Source: Methylocaldum sp. 14B (GTDB lineage: Bacteria; Pseudomonadota; Gammaproteobacteria; Methylococcales; Methylococcaceae). Taken from it: a DNA stretch of 64,000 nt. The notes beneath the pieces were generated by a model. That model did not search any database and was not told where the DNA came from. It worked only from the letters and a program-made list of their open reading frames with translations. A program made the position numbers and the translations under genes. The stretch covers positions 124,001 through 188,000 of the forward strand of contig NZ_MSCV01000003.1 of the NCBI RefSeq assembly GCF_002005105.1, read 5' to 3'. Below, piece after piece: positions 26,726 through 32,522 of this stretch (positions are counted from its first letter, which is position 1; each line of letters opens with the position of its first letter).

Positions 26726-27895
26726 TCAGTCTTTGTGACTGCACCATAACATAGGATTCACCGGTCTTCCTTTTTCGCGAATGCCAAAATAAAGTCCGGA
26801 CTCCGCACGACCGCCGCTGGCACCGACTGTAGCGATGATATCACCGCCGTTCACCGAGTCCCCGACATTCTTATACAAACTCTGATTGAAAGCGTAGAGA
26901 CTCATATATCCCTCGCCGTGATCGATAATGGTCAACAAGCCATAGCCCCGCAACCAATCGGAGTATGCCACCCTCCCCGCCGCAACGGCATGCACCGGCG
27001 CGCCCTCCGGTGCTCGTATAACGACACCATCCCAACGGCCACTCGCTCGCGGACTGCCGAACGACTCAAGCAGTGAACCCTTCGTCGGATATGTTAACTG
27101 ACCATAAAGGGCGGAAAAGGGTCCTTTGCTGGCTGACCGATCTCGCGCCGAGTCGTCCGACAAAGGGCGAATGGCGGCAACCAGATCTTGCAGGCGCTCT
27201 TCATCCTCCTGGAGCCGCCTCAGCTGGGTGTCCTTATCCTGAAGGCTATGTTCCAAGTCGGCCAAAACCTCGCGTCGGGATTGTCGGAACTTATCCAACT
27301 CGAGGCGATCTTTTGCTACCTGCTCACGAGTGGATTGAAGCTTCGCCGCTTCGGCCGACGCTTGCTGCTGCAATTGCGAAACGGTTGTTAAATCCTTTTG
27401 CATCTCCCTCAGCAGCGAGAATCGAGCTTGACTCAGATAATTGTAATAAGCCAGCACGCGACTGAGCTGGCGTGGGTCTTCCTGATCCAACACCAGCTTC
27501 AGCCAATCTTGCCGGCCGGCGGCATAGGCCGCACGAGCTTGTCCTGTCAATGTTTTATATTGCGCTTTCACTGCCGCCCGCAACTCACTGCTTTGGCGTT
27601 CCAAATCGTTCAAATGCCGCAATTGGGCTTGCGCTTGAATCTCGAGCTCTTTAAGCCGTTTTGCCAGACGTCCGTAGTCCCGCTCGATACCGCTCAATTG
27701 CCCGATCAGAGCTCGTCTGCGCGACTCTAGAGCGTCCCTGGACTTCTGGACCGTCTTAATACGCTCCCGAACCGTAGTTAGTTCATCCAAACGATCCTTT
27801 GGTTCCGAGACCGCCGCCGCGAAAGGCATTTTGAATGCTAGAGCCAGACAGAAAACTCGCGCGACTCGGTGACAGGACAAAACGGCAAACCTCAA
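26726..27895 (-). CDS. envC: EnvC-type activator of cell-division amidases
   Basis: 389 residues: a signal peptide, a long coiled coil (about 35-250, rich in Gln/Arg/Leu/Glu) and a C-terminal LytM/M23 domain (about 270-385). The zinc ligands are gone: the usual HxxxD reads RWDGVVIRA and the HxH region reads SLYAFNQS, as in E. coli EnvC. It should therefore act by activating amidases at the septum, not as a hydrolase. The start is a TTG overlapping the gpmI stop (TTGA). Its place with gpmI matches the enterobacterial gpmM-envC order. Confidence 0.88.
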
Positions 27896-29433
27896 ATCAG
27901 CAACGATCGCCCCGTCATATCCGCCGGCTTTTCAAGCCCGATAATCGCGAGCAATGTCGGCGCGACATCGGGCAGACCGCCTCCGTCGCTTAACCTACCG
28001 GCTTTGCCTTTATACACGAGCGGCACGGGATTAACCGAGTGCGCGGTCTGAACTTCGCCGGTCGAAGGATCGATCATTTGCTCGACATTGCCATGATCTG
28101 CCGTAATCAGCATTTCGCCCCCGACCTTGTCGAGAGCCTCGACGACTCGACCCAATGCCTCATCCAAAGCCTCTACCGCCCGAATCGATGCGTCCAGGTT
28201 ACCAGTATGACCAACCATATCCCCGTTGGCGTAGTTACAGATGATGACGTCGTACTCGCCGGACTCGATCGCCTTGACCAATTCTTCCGTCACTTCAGGA
28301 GCACTCATTTCCGGCTTCTGATCGTAGGTCTTGACCTTGGGCGACGGCACCAAGATGCGCGTTTCTCCGGGAAAGGGCGTTTCTACTCCGCCATTAAAGA
28401 AAAACGTAACGTGAGCGTACTTTTCAGTCTCGGCCAACCGCAACTGCCTTAGACCATGCTTCGACAAGACTTCGCCCAGGCTGTTGGTCACGTCTTGCGG
28501 CGGATAAGCGACGGGAAACGTAAAGTCTTGGTGATATTCCGTCAATGTAACAAACCCACCCAGCTTCGGAACGACCTCGCGTCGAAACCCCACGAAATCG
28601 GCCTCGTTGAGTGCGCGCGTCAGCTCTCGGGCGCGATCGGCCCGAAAATTCATGAATATCACGACATCGCCGTCCTTGAGAGTAATCGGCGCTTCACCGT
28701 CCGGAACGATTGAAGTCGCTTTGACGAACTCGTCGGACTCACCCCGCTCGTAAGCCAGCGTCAAGCCCTCGATCGCCGTTTCCGTGCGGTAATCGGCTTT
28801 TCCTTGCACGATAAGGTCGTATGCCTGCTGGATACGGTCCCAGCGATTATCGCGATCCATCGCGTAAAAACGGCCAATAATGGATGCAATCCGCCCTGCC
28901 CCCAGTTCTTCGAACTTCGAATCCATTCTGCGTATCGGGTCGCCTGCGCTCTTGGGTGGGGTATCTCGCCCATCCAGAAAGGCATGCACATAGACCTTTC
29001 TCAGCCCCTTCCTAACCGCGAGCTCCGCCATTGCATGAATGTGAATTTCGTGGCTGTGAACGCCGCCGGGCGACAGCAGTCCTAAAATATGGAGTGCCTT
29101 ATCGTTCCGAAGGGCCTTGTCCACGGCTTCGCGCAGAACGGGATTGGTGTAAAACGAACGGTCCCTAGCCGCTTTACTGATCAACGTAAAATCCTGATTG
29201 ATAAGTCGACCCGCCCCTAAATGCAAATGTCCCACCTCGGAATTGCCCATTTGATCGTCGGGCAAGCCGACGACTTCACCGGAGCAATCGAGCAATGTAT
29301 GCGCGCAAGTATTCCACAGCTTCGTCCATGTCGGGGTTCTTGCAAGAGCGATAGCGTTATGGTCTTTGGTTTCGCTGTAACCAAAACCGTCCAGAATGAT
29401 GAGGACAACAGGTTTAGGACGATTCAACTTCAA
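27892..29433 (-). CDS. gpmI: 2,3-bisphosphoglycerate-independent phosphoglycerate mutase
   Basis: 513-residue manganese enzyme interconverting 3- and 2-phosphoglycerate. It belongs to the alkaline phosphatase superfamily: [13 protein letters not shown] at the start, the phospho-serine in [24 protein letters not shown] and [12 protein letters not shown] in the substrate domain, and [11 protein letters not shown] near the end. The start is a TTG at 29433 with AGGGAG eight bases upstream; no suitable ATG precedes the catalytic LDG motif. It diverges from the ArsR-family gene. Confidence 0.95.
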
Positions 29434-29660
29434 AGTATAATCTCCCTCTCGGTTTTTGCGCGTTTGCCTGGCAATAAAGGCATTGTTGCTTCCCGCAGAA
29501 AAAATCAGTATGTCCCAATGGCCAAGCGGCTGCTTTCGCGGAAAGGAAAAGACCTCGAACTCAATATCGCCGGATAAATATGAATTTGAGAATGAGGCGC
29601 CATGGGCTTAGGCAAAGGGAAAAACGGAGTAGTATTTTAACTTTTTTTTGCAACCCCGTG

Positions 29661-29672
29661 TTGCTCGAGCAA
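29661..29672. promoter_or_regulatory. Perfect 12-bp palindrome between gpmI and the ArsR-family gene
   Basis: TTGCTCGAGCAA is fully self-complementary and lies 45 bp before the regulator start, where an autoregulatory operator would be expected. It does not match the ATTC-N8-GAAT pattern. No other motif was recognised in the 283-bp divergent gap. Confidence 0.3.
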
Positions 29673-29716
29673 TCGCGGCTAAAGAGCGCACAAACTCTTA
29701 CAATGCGAAGCCTCCG

Positions 29717-30028
29717 ATGACCAAACCAAACGAGATACTGATTACGGAAGATGCCGATATCGCGCAGGCTGCCTATTGCCTGAAAGCCATGTCCCATCCG
29801 CTGCGACTCAAGATTTTATGCACCTTGGGGAACAATAAAGTCAGCGTTCAGGACATCGTCGAGCAGGTCGGCACGACTCAGAGCAATATCTCTCAGCATC
29901 TGGGCATTCTGCGCGATAAAGGTATTCTCGCCTGTAAGAAAGACGCTAACCGCGTGTACTATTACGTTGACGACGAGCGCACACTGCAGCTGATCAAGCT
30001 GATGAAAGAAGTATTTTGTCATCATTAG
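29717..30028 (+). CDS. ArsR-family repressor with SqrR/BigR-like cysteine pair
   Basis: 103-residue winged-helix regulator. The helix-turn-helix is SVQDIVEQVGTTQSNISQHLGILRDKG (about 43-69), after the family motif AMSHPLRLKILCTL. Four cysteines are present: C21, C35, C73 and C101. C35 and C101 are 66 residues apart, the spacing of the persulfide-sensing pair in SqrR (C41/C107) and BigR (C42/C108), and fall in the equivalent helices. Metal sites of classic ArsR/SmtB type (CxC in the recognition helix) are absent. The next gene is a rhodanese, which handles sulfane sulfur. Sensing of reactive sulfur is inferred. The ATG at 29717 matches the family N-terminus. Confidence 0.8.
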   Translation: MTKPNEILITEDADIAQAAYCLKAMSHPLRLKILCTLGNNKVSVQDIVEQVGTTQSNISQHLGILRDKGILACKKDANRVYYYVDDERTLQLIKLMKEVFCHH

Positions 30029-30047
30029 TTGGAGCCGAATTTTCTCT

Positions 30048-30497
30048 ATGACTGTCACACCCGACCGCCTGTTGGAATTCCTGGGCAATCACTGGATCAT
30101 GGCCAGCGGTTTGCTCATTGTTACGATTTTGCTGATTCAGGATTTTATCGACAGCGCCTTCCGTAAACACAAAGTAATCTCGCCGACGGAAGCCGTAAAC
30201 CTGATGAATGATGAAAACACCATCATTATCGATGTCCGCGAACCGCACGAACATGCCAACGGCCATATCGAAAATGCGAAATTCATTCCCTTGGGCAAAC
30301 TCGAGGAACGAGCACAGGAATTGGAGGCATACAAACAAAATCCCGTTATCGTAACCTGCCAGTCCGGCACGCGATCTCCCCAGGCCTGCAAGAAACTGAC
30401 CGGTTTAGGCTTCACCCGAGTGTTTGAAATGAAAGGCGGCATGCTCGCATGGGAAGACCAAAAATACCCCGTCGTTAAGAAGCGGAATAACAAGTAA
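30048..30497 (+). CDS. Membrane-anchored rhodanese (YibN-like)
   Basis: 149 residues: an N-terminal membrane helix (about 16-33), then a single rhodanese domain with DVREPHEHANGHI near residue 62 and the active-site cysteine C104 in VTCQSGTRSPQA. Rhodaneses carry sulfane sulfur as a cysteine persulfide. It matches E. coli YibN in topology and in location beside secB. It lies 19 bp after the ArsR-family gene and is probably co-transcribed with it. Confidence 0.88.
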   Translation: MTVTPDRLLEFLGNHWIMASGLLIVTILLIQDFIDSAFRKHKVISPTEAVNLMNDENTIIIDVREPHEHANGHIENAKFIPLGKLEERAQELEAYKQNPVIVTCQSGTRSPQACKKLTGLGFTRVFEMKGGMLAWEDQKYPVVKKRNNK

Positions 30498-30547
30498 TTC
30501 GCCCTCTCCCGATTTTTCCAAGCTTACGAAACAAATAAGGATTATCC

Positions 30548-31009
30548 ATGGCCGAAGAAACCACTCAGCCAGAAAGACAGTTCGTCCTGCAAAAGATTTA
30601 CGTTAAGGACGTCTCTTTCGAGACGCCGAATTCGCCGGAGGTATTCACGCTCAAATGGGAACCGAAGGTCGAATTCAACCTGTCGAGCAATGCGCAAAAG
30701 CTTCAGGAAAATCTGTACGAGGTCAGTCTCACCACGACGGTAACCGTTAAACTCGGCGAAAAAACCGCTTATTTGGTGGAAGTCTGCCAAGCGGGGATTT
30801 TCGCGATGGCGGGCTTCGACGACCAAGAACTCGGCCCTCTGATCGGTAGCTACTGTCCGAACGTTCTCTTTCCGTATGCGCGCGAGGCCGTTTCCGATCT
30901 CGTGACCAAGGGCGGTTTCCCGCCCATGCTCCTTGCCCCCATCAATTTCGACGCCTTGTACATGCAGCAGATGCAACAGCAGCAGGGCTCCGCCCCCACA
31001 AGCCATTAA
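30548..31009 (+). CDS. secB: Protein-export chaperone SecB
   Basis: 153-residue tetrameric chaperone that keeps preproteins unfolded and delivers them to SecA. Typical features: FVLQKIYVKDVSFETPNSP at the start, YEVSLTTTVTV, and GIFAMAGF followed by LIGSYCPNVLFPYAREAVSDLVTKGGFPPMLLAPINF. The tail is glutamine-rich (MQQMQQQQ). It lies between the rhodanese and gpsA, as in E. coli, although grxC is absent. SecA is encoded in this window at 41847. Confidence 0.97.
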   Translation: MAEETTQPERQFVLQKIYVKDVSFETPNSPEVFTLKWEPKVEFNLSSNAQKLQENLYEVSLTTTVTVKLGEKTAYLVEVCQAGIFAMAGFDDQELGPLIGSYCPNVLFPYAREAVSDLVTKGGFPPMLLAPINFDALYMQQMQQQQGSAPTSH

Positions 31010-31032
31010 CGGGATAGTCCGCAATCGCCCAC

Positions 31033-32037
31033 ATGACAGCTGTATCAGTTCTCGGCGCGGGCTCATGGGGCACAGCCCTAGCCCTTTTGATAGCCCGCAA
31101 CGGCCATCCCACTGTGCTTTGGGGGCATCGCCCCGAACATTTGGCCAAACTCAACGCCGCCCGGGGCAACGAGCGCTATTTACCCGGTGCGCGCTTTCCC
31201 GACAACCTCCGGGTCGTCGCGAATCTGGAAGAAGCCGTTAAGACCGCGGAAATTCTCGTAGTTGCGGTGCCCAGCCATGCATTTAGAAACCTCCTGATGG
31301 ACCTGGCACCGCATCTCACCCCGGAATCCAAGATCGCATGGGCCACGAAAGGTCTGGAACTGCAAAGCGGAAAGCTTTTGCACCAAGTCACGGAGGACGT
31401 TCTGGGACCCGACATTCCCGCCGCCGTGCTGTCCGGCCCAAGCTTCGCCCGCGACTTGGCCGCCAATCTCCCGACCGCCATTACGGTAGCGTCACGGGAG
31501 ATCGAATTCGCCAAAATGCTGGCGGGGCTGCTTCATAACAACCGATTCCGCGCATACACCACCGAAGACATCATCGGCGTTCAGTTGGGCGGGGCGACCA
31601 AGAACGTACTGGCTATCGCCGCCGGGGTCGCCGACGGCCTGGGCTTCGGCGCCAACTCCCGTGCGGCGCTGATAACCCGCGGACTCGCAGAGATGATGCG
31701 CTTGGGTTTGGCATTGGGTGGCAAACCGGAAACCTTCATGGGACTTGCCGGTGTCGGCGATCTCATTTTGACCTGCACCGACAATCAATCTCGAAACCGG
31801 CGCTTCGGCCTCGGGCTCGGCAAAGGGCTCCCGCGAGAGCAAGTCGCGGCCGAAATCGGCCAAGAAATCGAAGGGATTCTTACTACGAAGGTTATTTACC
31901 AGCTGGCGCAAAGTCTCGGGATCGAGATGCCGATTACCGAACAGACCTACAAAATCCTTTACGAAGGGCTCGCGCCTTTAGAGGCCGTCAACAATCTACT
32001 CCTGAGAGAACAGAAGCCGGAAGCCTTGGCCGGTTGA
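31033..32037 (+). CDS. gpsA: Glycerol-3-phosphate dehydrogenase [NAD(P)+]
   Basis: 334 residues, reducing dihydroxyacetone phosphate to sn-glycerol-3-phosphate for phospholipids; its product is the substrate of PlsY at the left edge. The nucleotide site VLGAGSWGTALA is at residues 5-16. Further motifs are AVPSHAFRNLL, LSGPSFARDLA, and the catalytic lysine region QLGGATKNVLAIAAG, with GLAGVGDLILTCT. It follows secB by 23 bp. The E. coli order secB-gpsA-cysE-trmL is kept except that cysE is missing. Confidence 0.95.
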   Translation: MTAVSVLGAGSWGTALALLIARNGHPTVLWGHRPEHLAKLNAARGNERYLPGARFPDNLRVVANLEEAVKTAEILVVAVPSHAFRNLLMDLAPHLTPESKIAWATKGLELQSGKLLHQVTEDVLGPDIPAAVLSGPSFARDLAANLPTAITVASREIEFAKMLAGLLHNNRFRAYTTEDIIGVQLGGATKNVLAIAAGVADGLGFGANSRAALITRGLAEMMRLGLALGGKPETFMGLAGVGDLILTCTDNQSRNRRFGLGLGKGLPREQVAAEIGQEIEGILTTKVIYQLAQSLGIEMPITEQTYKILYEGLAPLEAVNNLLLREQKPEALAG

Positions 32038-32048
32038 GCCTGCTTCGG

Positions 32049-32522
32049 TCAAACCCGTTCAATCGCTCCCGAAAAGCCGTTCTGCCGCCATGCTTCGTAA
32101 AGCACCAACGCTACGGTATTGGACAGATTCAGGCTGCGGCTTTCCGGTTTCATAGGCACGTAAAGAAGGCGCGGCTTCGGCAAGGAAGCCAGCAAGGTTT
32201 CCGGCAATCCCCTGGACTCCGGACCGAACAGCAAGGCGTCATTCGGGCGGAAGTCGGCATCCGCGTAGCAGCACCGCCCTTTGGTGCTGAGCGCGAACAG
32301 CCGCTCCGGCCGAACCCGTTCCAAGAATTCATCCAGTCCCCCGTATTCCCGCACATCTGCCCATTCCCGATAATCGAGGCCGGCGCGCCGCAACCTGGCG
32401 TCATCAAGCCGGAAGCCCAAGGGATGGATGAGATGCAGCCAAGCGCCCGTGTTGGCGCAGAGACGGATGATATTCCCTGTGTTCGGCGGTATTTCCGGCT
32501 CGTAAAGGACGATGTGGAACAC
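32049..32522 (-). CDS. trmL: tRNA (cytidine/uridine-34-2'-O)-methyltransferase TrmL
   Basis: 157-residue SPOUT-family enzyme methylating the wobble ribose of tRNA-Leu. Motifs: VLYEPEIPPNTGNIIRLCANTG at the start, LLFGPESRGLP, and the knot region VPMKPESRSLNLSNTVALVLYE. The start is a GTG at 32522. It converges on gpsA with 11 bp between the ends and lies 8 bp after glgP on the minus strand. Confidence 0.93.
   Translation of the reverse strand: MFHIVLYEPEIPPNTGNIIRLCANTGAWLHLIHPLGFRLDDARLRRAGLDYREWADVREYGGLDEFLERVRPERLFALSTKGRCCYADADFRPNDALLFGPESRGLPETLLASLPKPRLLYVPMKPESRSLNLSNTVALVLYEAWRQNGFSGAIERV

Follow-up and report, generated by a model that had tools for sequence, protein, structure and literature searches.

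A candidate persulfide-responsive ArsR-family repressor heading the yibN-secB-gpsA gene cluster of methanotrophs and other Gammaproteobacteria

Gene organization of the locus

The window, i.e. the whole 64,000-nucleotide stretch of Methylocaldum sp. 14B DNA analyzed here, carries on its forward strand a run of four closely spaced genes: an ArsR-family regulator of 103 residues (29717..30028; ATG start), a YibN-type membrane rhodanese of 149 residues (30048..30497; Rhodanese PF00581, 74.1 bits), the protein-export chaperone gene secB (30548..31009; PF02556, 199 bits; NF004393, 226.7 bits against a cut-off of 180) and gpsA, coding for the NAD(P)H-dependent glycerol-3-phosphate dehydrogenase (31033..32037; PF07479/PF01210; NF000940, 453 bits against a cut-off of 202). 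The gaps between them are 19, 50 and 23 bp, respectively. Upstream of arsR, gpmM, which encodes the 2,3-bisphosphoglycerate-independent phosphoglycerate mutase (27892..29433, reverse strand; PF01676 and PF06415; TTG start), and envC run divergently, and the intergenic region between gpmM and arsR (29434..29716) is the expected location of an operator. Downstream, a convergent gene on the reverse strand for a SpoU-family RNA methylase (trmL-like; 32049..32522; PF00588, 109.9 bits) closes the unit; trmL of E. coli is likewise found near the equivalent genes. The TTG of the gpmM frame is preceded by GATTATAC, and the stretch at 29423-29441 is conserved through the family, the same methanotroph family to which Methylococcus capsulatus belongs.

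The rhodanese begins 19 bp after the arsR stop codon and has its active-site cysteine at C104 (codon 30357-30359), as the initial annotation had stated. It combines a hydrophobic N-terminal segment with the catalytic loop CQSGTRS, and aligns over nearly its full length with E. coli YibN (29% identity); its match to YgaP is less close and confined to the rhodanese domain. An N-terminal membrane segment and a rhodanese domain encoded beside secB-gpsA identify it as a YibN-type rhodanese. The catalytic cysteine of the neighboring rhodanese is present in all 148 readable loci of the ArsR family described below. E. coli YibN itself (L165:5588-6016) shows DGSGMQC where its relatives carry the cysteine of the catalytic loop (CxSGxR), and is in this respect atypical of its own family. 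The E. coli case had prompted the idea that arsR and the rhodanese catalytic cysteine are lost together; this was rejected, as the cysteine is kept in 30 of 30 loci lacking arsR. In E. coli, YibN is a partner of YidC, and work on that species treats yibN-grxC-secB-gpsA as an operon whose functions concern the envelope (PMC12282094).

A conserved cysteine pair in the ArsR-family protein

The regulator is a member of the ArsR/SmtB superfamily, as seen both in profile matches (HTH_5, 42.7 bits against a cut-off of 22; NF033788, 80.5 bits against a cut-off of 55) and in an AlphaFold2 model (pLDDT 87.5) that displays the winged-helix ArsR domain and retrieves PDB structures with Z-scores up to 15.8. 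It contains four cysteines, at positions 21, 35, 73 and 101; the initial annotation had named only two of these, C35 (codon 29819-29821) and C101 (codon 30017-30019), and the separation of 66 residues that it gave for them holds in the translated frame. Among 152 family members, C35 is present in all and C101 in 149, whereas C21 and C73 are found in just 50 and 34, respectively. Since C35 is part of the peptide pattern by which 80 of the 152 loci were collected, the unbiased set for this residue comprises the other 72, recovered by whole-protein searches, and C35 is present in every one of them; C101 was part of neither collection pattern. The retention of both residues across the 152 members, with C21 and C73 rarely kept, thus indicates a pair conserved beyond chance. 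The window protein is the sole PF01022 match in its genome with a pair of the C35/C101 type.

The three exceptions at C101 (L153, L158 and L159) come from a single gammaproteobacterial family, have valine at this position and belong to genomes that each encode two family matches. Relatives outside the class, from another class of the phylum (L220-L228), have V, A or I in place of C35, within LRLKILVAL, LRIKIIAAL or similar segments, while C21 and C101 are kept; a membrane rhodanese follows in most of these loci. These outside-class proteins may use another cysteine pair or form no bridge.

In the predicted model, C35 lies inside the helix spanning residues 28-37 (α2) and C101 directly after the helix spanning 87-100, i.e. 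at the end of α5. Gap-free superpositions place the two residues on positions 41/107 of SqrR (6o8m; 94 residues, 1.4 Å, offset 6) and 42/108 of BigR (3pqj; 98 residues, 2.0 Å, offset 7), which we take to be the reactive cysteine pairs of these proteins. On HlyU (4k2e; 92 residues, 1.1 Å, offset 3) they fall on 38/104, the only cysteines of that protein (PMC10509353). The earlier proposal that both residues occupy helices matching the SqrR/BigR pair is thus borne out without a single gap in the register. The fold by itself does not discriminate between sensor types: the metal sensor CzrA superposes on the model (Z-score 15.3) as well as HlyU.

Relationships and sensor class

In a sequence search of the PDB, the nearest solved relatives of the window protein are BigR (63.9 bits), HlyU (61), YgaV (61) and SqrR (49), followed by weaker matches to NolR, Rv0081, NmtR and SmtB, with CzrA at about 26 bits. 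A profile of 20 family members recovers these groups in the same order, with HlyU as the best match at 77.7 bits. BigR, HlyU, YgaV and SqrR are treated as sensors of reactive sulfur species (PMC12423496, PMC10509353), and the reactive-sulfur group of ArsR proteins, which also includes SoxR, is marked by one cysteine in α2 and another in α5 (PMC10509353; PMC12423496). Three features of the persulfide-sensing group (cluster 4 of the sequence similarity network in PMC10509353) are seen in our family: the α2/α5 cysteine register, conservation of the pair and adjacency to a rhodanese.

In a maximum-likelihood tree the family forms a clade of its own (support 98/98) that, with long branches leading to the reference proteins, is firmly joined neither to the reactive-sulfur sensors nor to the metal sensors. 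It scores 74.5 bits with the NCBIfam BigR equivalog NF040642, far below the cut-off of 155. The phylogeny thus does not place it firmly with the metal sensors, as would have spoken against the persulfide-sensor reading of the initial annotation, and equally provides no firm placement with the reactive-sulfur sensors; this reading draws its support instead from the nearest relatives, the register and conservation of the cysteines, the rhodanese and the missing metal site.

The last of these bears directly on the possibility that the protein senses a metal or metalloid in the manner of ArsR/SmtB. Such a function is suggested by the generic NCBIfam label 'metalloregulator ArsR/SmtB family', by the equally close fold of CzrA and by potential ligands in the window protein, namely H102, H103 and the four cysteines. 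However, there is no cysteine in α3, the site of the CXC motif of such sensors, and the α5 ligand positions of CzrA, presumably D84, H86, H97 and H100, correspond to D86, R88, V99 and H102, i.e. an arginine replaces an α5 histidine, and neither H102 nor H103 is conserved in the family. Neither type of SmtB/CzrA metal site is therefore found. Moreover, the examined loci are flanked by gpmM/envC and rhodanese-secB-gpsA, with no adjacent metal transporter or ars genes, and we regard metal sensing as very improbable. Even slightly less probable is a regulator responding to heme or another ligand, in which the cysteines would be structural. YgaV and SqrR do bind heme, but DNA binding by YgaV is little affected by it (PMC9774250), and a purely structural role sits poorly with a conserved C35/C101 pair that exactly matches the reactive one. 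The window protein is best read as a persulfide-responsive repressor, and its family adds a new lineage to a known sensor type.

Comparison with characterized systems

The closest functional parallel is YgaV of E. coli, an ArsR repressor with a Cys31/Cys98 pair that shares its operon with a membrane rhodanese and is derepressed by sulfide (PMC9774250). The ygaVP locus resembles that of the window in coupling an ArsR protein bearing a cysteine pair to a membrane rhodanese, and the pairing as such is therefore already known; it differs in being located elsewhere, without secB or gpsA, in its rhodanese YgaP, which is not of the YibN type, and in YgaV representing a separate lineage. BigR of Xylella and Acinetobacter is the best single PDB match and has its cysteine pair in the same register, whereas the window protein falls short of the BigR equivalog threshold. 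BigR operons carry other sulfur-oxidation genes.

HlyU of Vibrio is the best profile match and shares the cysteine spacing of 66; unlike the repressor proposed here, it serves to activate a distant gene (PMC10509353). SqrR of Rhodobacter capsulatus and SoxR/sHdrR of Hyphomicrobium are ArsR repressors responding to sulfane sulfur (PMC12423496), but differ from the window protein in governing sqr, sox and shdr genes; the Hyphomicrobium paper makes no mention of secB (PMC12423496). Conversely, the yibN-grxC-secB-gpsA operon of E. coli shares with the window the type of rhodanese, secB, gpsA and the divergent gpmM-envC, while differing in the lack of arsR, the presence of grxC, which is missing from the window, and a YibN without the usual catalytic cysteine.

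Phyletic distribution and conserved gene neighborhoods

Searches recovered the arsR gene from 28 of the 38 genomes of its family, from 178 of 251 at the level of the order and, at E 1e-20, from 198 of the 377 genomes sampled for the class. A rhodanese gene directly follows it in all 28 loci of the family and adjoins it in 78 of 80 named loci that span Methylococcales, Chromatiaceae, Ectothiorhodospiraceae, Thiotrichaceae, Sedimenticolaceae and others; 43 of 44 additional loci agree with this arrangement. In nearly all of the 80, wherever the contig extends far enough, gpmM or envC lies divergently and secB-gpsA downstream, and grxC occurs near the rhodanese in 15. Evolutionary distances are correlated in mirror-tree comparisons between ArsR and the rhodanese (r 0.64), less so between ArsR and gpsA (0.41) and not between ArsR and secB (0.02), values that fit a shared history of the genes no better than its absence.

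Genomes without arsR retain the same neighborhood, including the rhodanese with its catalytic cysteine; arsR is thus an optional addition at the head of an old gene cluster. E. coli K-12, in which the initial annotation had noted the absence of a regulator at this spot, is indeed such a case, with nothing of the kind between gpmM-envC and the divergent yibN-grxC-secB-gpsA, and is one of many genomes lacking arsR. The arrangement had also been considered unusual. It is in fact conserved across much of Gammaproteobacteria; what does hold is that no paper we found describes it. Our search of the open-access literature for an ArsR regulator tied to secB or gpsA returned none, and the presence of arsR at the head of this export and envelope cluster across Gammaproteobacteria is new to the literature searched.

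Presence of the regulator also correlates with that of sulfur-oxidation genes of the SoxY type. When 127 families are represented by one genome each, 55 have both arsR and SoxY, 14 arsR alone, 15 SoxY alone and 43 neither (Fisher p ~1e-9, uncorrected for kinship of the families). This association bears on whether C35 and C101 might instead constitute a general thiol-redox switch, forming a plain disulfide upon exposure to peroxide, hypochlorite or glutathione disulfide. SqrR does crystallize in a disulfide state (6o8o), and sequence cannot tell these chemistries apart. Nevertheless, the associations with the rhodanese and SoxY point to sulfur, HlyU with the same pair neither reacted with H2O2 or GSSG nor released DNA in their presence (PMC10509353), and the peroxide sensors sit in a separate cluster (PMC10509353). 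Accordingly, we consider a general redox switch unlikely.

Promoter, operator and extent of the transcript

A scan of 29380-32100 for sigma-70 consensus promoters found none, and no terminator-like sites were found between arsR and secB in the window. Upstream of arsR, the block ATTTTAACTTTTTTTTG (29634..29650, forward strand) recurs at a similar position, between -73 and -97, throughout most of the family; we infer that it belongs to the arsR promoter/operator or else forms the -10 element of the divergent gpmM promoter. The ATTTTAAC block may be the operator in the window, as may other sites.

Of the loci examined, roughly one in four has the exact sequence ATTATTGTATAAT, which contains a TATAAT -10 box, upstream of arsR, mostly 60-120 bp before the gene. 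The 16-mer ATTATTGTATAATGTT, which overlaps the -10 box, occurs exactly once per genome, at arsR, in 7 genomes from 4 families, and such uniqueness is consistent with an autoregulator that has one target. Allowing up to one mismatch, ATTATTGTATAATGTT is absent from the window genome and from three genus-mates, and is thereby ruled out as the operator in the window. Expectation-maximization motif runs on the upstream regions of methanotrophs returned the gpmM start region. A near-perfect palindrome, TTAGAC-N3-GTCTAA, lies close to the gpmM start in about 25 loci, many of them from gammaproteobacteria other than methanotrophs (e.g. L071 at -224, L147 at -237 and L148 at -175, upstream of gpmM/arsR). 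It is found in up to six places per genome.

The reach of the proposed regulation depends on how far transcription proceeds. In Methylococcales the median gaps are 39 bp for arsR-rhodanese, 49 bp for rhodanese-secB and 17 bp for secB-gpsA, and these short distances make it likely that secB and gpsA are carried on the arsR-rhodanese RNA in methanotrophs. Beyond Methylococcales, more than 100 bp often separates arsR from the rhodanese gene and the latter from secB, making a separate promoter for secB possible, and a shared RNA is proposed there less surely. This leaves as a serious contender, to which we accord somewhat less than an even chance, that the persulfide repressor controls only arsR and the rhodanese, with secB and gpsA being old neighbors that have their own promoter and escape sulfur control. 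The ygaVP precedent is a two-gene unit under YgaV; the yibN-(grxC)-secB-gpsA order without arsR in many genomes speaks for a neighborhood independent of the regulator; and many non-methanotroph loci have a large gap between rhodanese and secB (third quartile 312 bp), some with grxC in between. Against this narrower range of targets, the 50-bp gap in the window has neither a terminator-like nor a promoter-like site and is close to the Methylococcales median. Judging from this spacing of the genes, sulfur may plausibly control secB and gpsA as well.

Mechanistic interpretation and implications

Taken together, the above leads to the proposal, which we judge probable, that the window protein is an ArsR-type homodimer that represses its own transcript and is released by persulfide, with read-through extending to secB and gpsA. 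In the reduced state, C35 and C101 would be free thiols and the dimer would occupy a putative operator upstream of arsR. Upon accumulation of sulfane sulfur in the form of persulfides or polysulfides, the two cysteines would be joined by an intraprotomer polysulfide bridge, and the bridged dimer would leave the DNA, allowing arsR and the rhodanese gene to be transcribed. The mode of action is predicted to be repression rather than activation. The rhodanese would then move or remove sulfane sulfur at the membrane, while read-through from arsR-rhodanese into the downstream genes would raise SecB and GpsA too. More tentatively, and with the odds against it, an old single-target persulfide sensor might set the expression of YibN-SecB-GpsA, taken as a module for membrane insertion and export, in roughly every second gammaproteobacterial family sampled, with reactive sulfur directly tuning both protein export and the supply of phospholipid precursors.

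Known persulfide repressors guard genes for sulfur oxidation, biofilm formation or virulence. Here, a repressor of the persulfide type appears to head a set comprising YibN, SecB and GpsA, and is retained in a range of lineages that includes methanotrophs and purple sulfur bacteria. Should these genes lie on one transcript, reactive sulfur would be linked to the export of proteins and the building of membranes. The arrangement also offers a possible role for YibN, a YidC partner with unexplained rhodanese chemistry.
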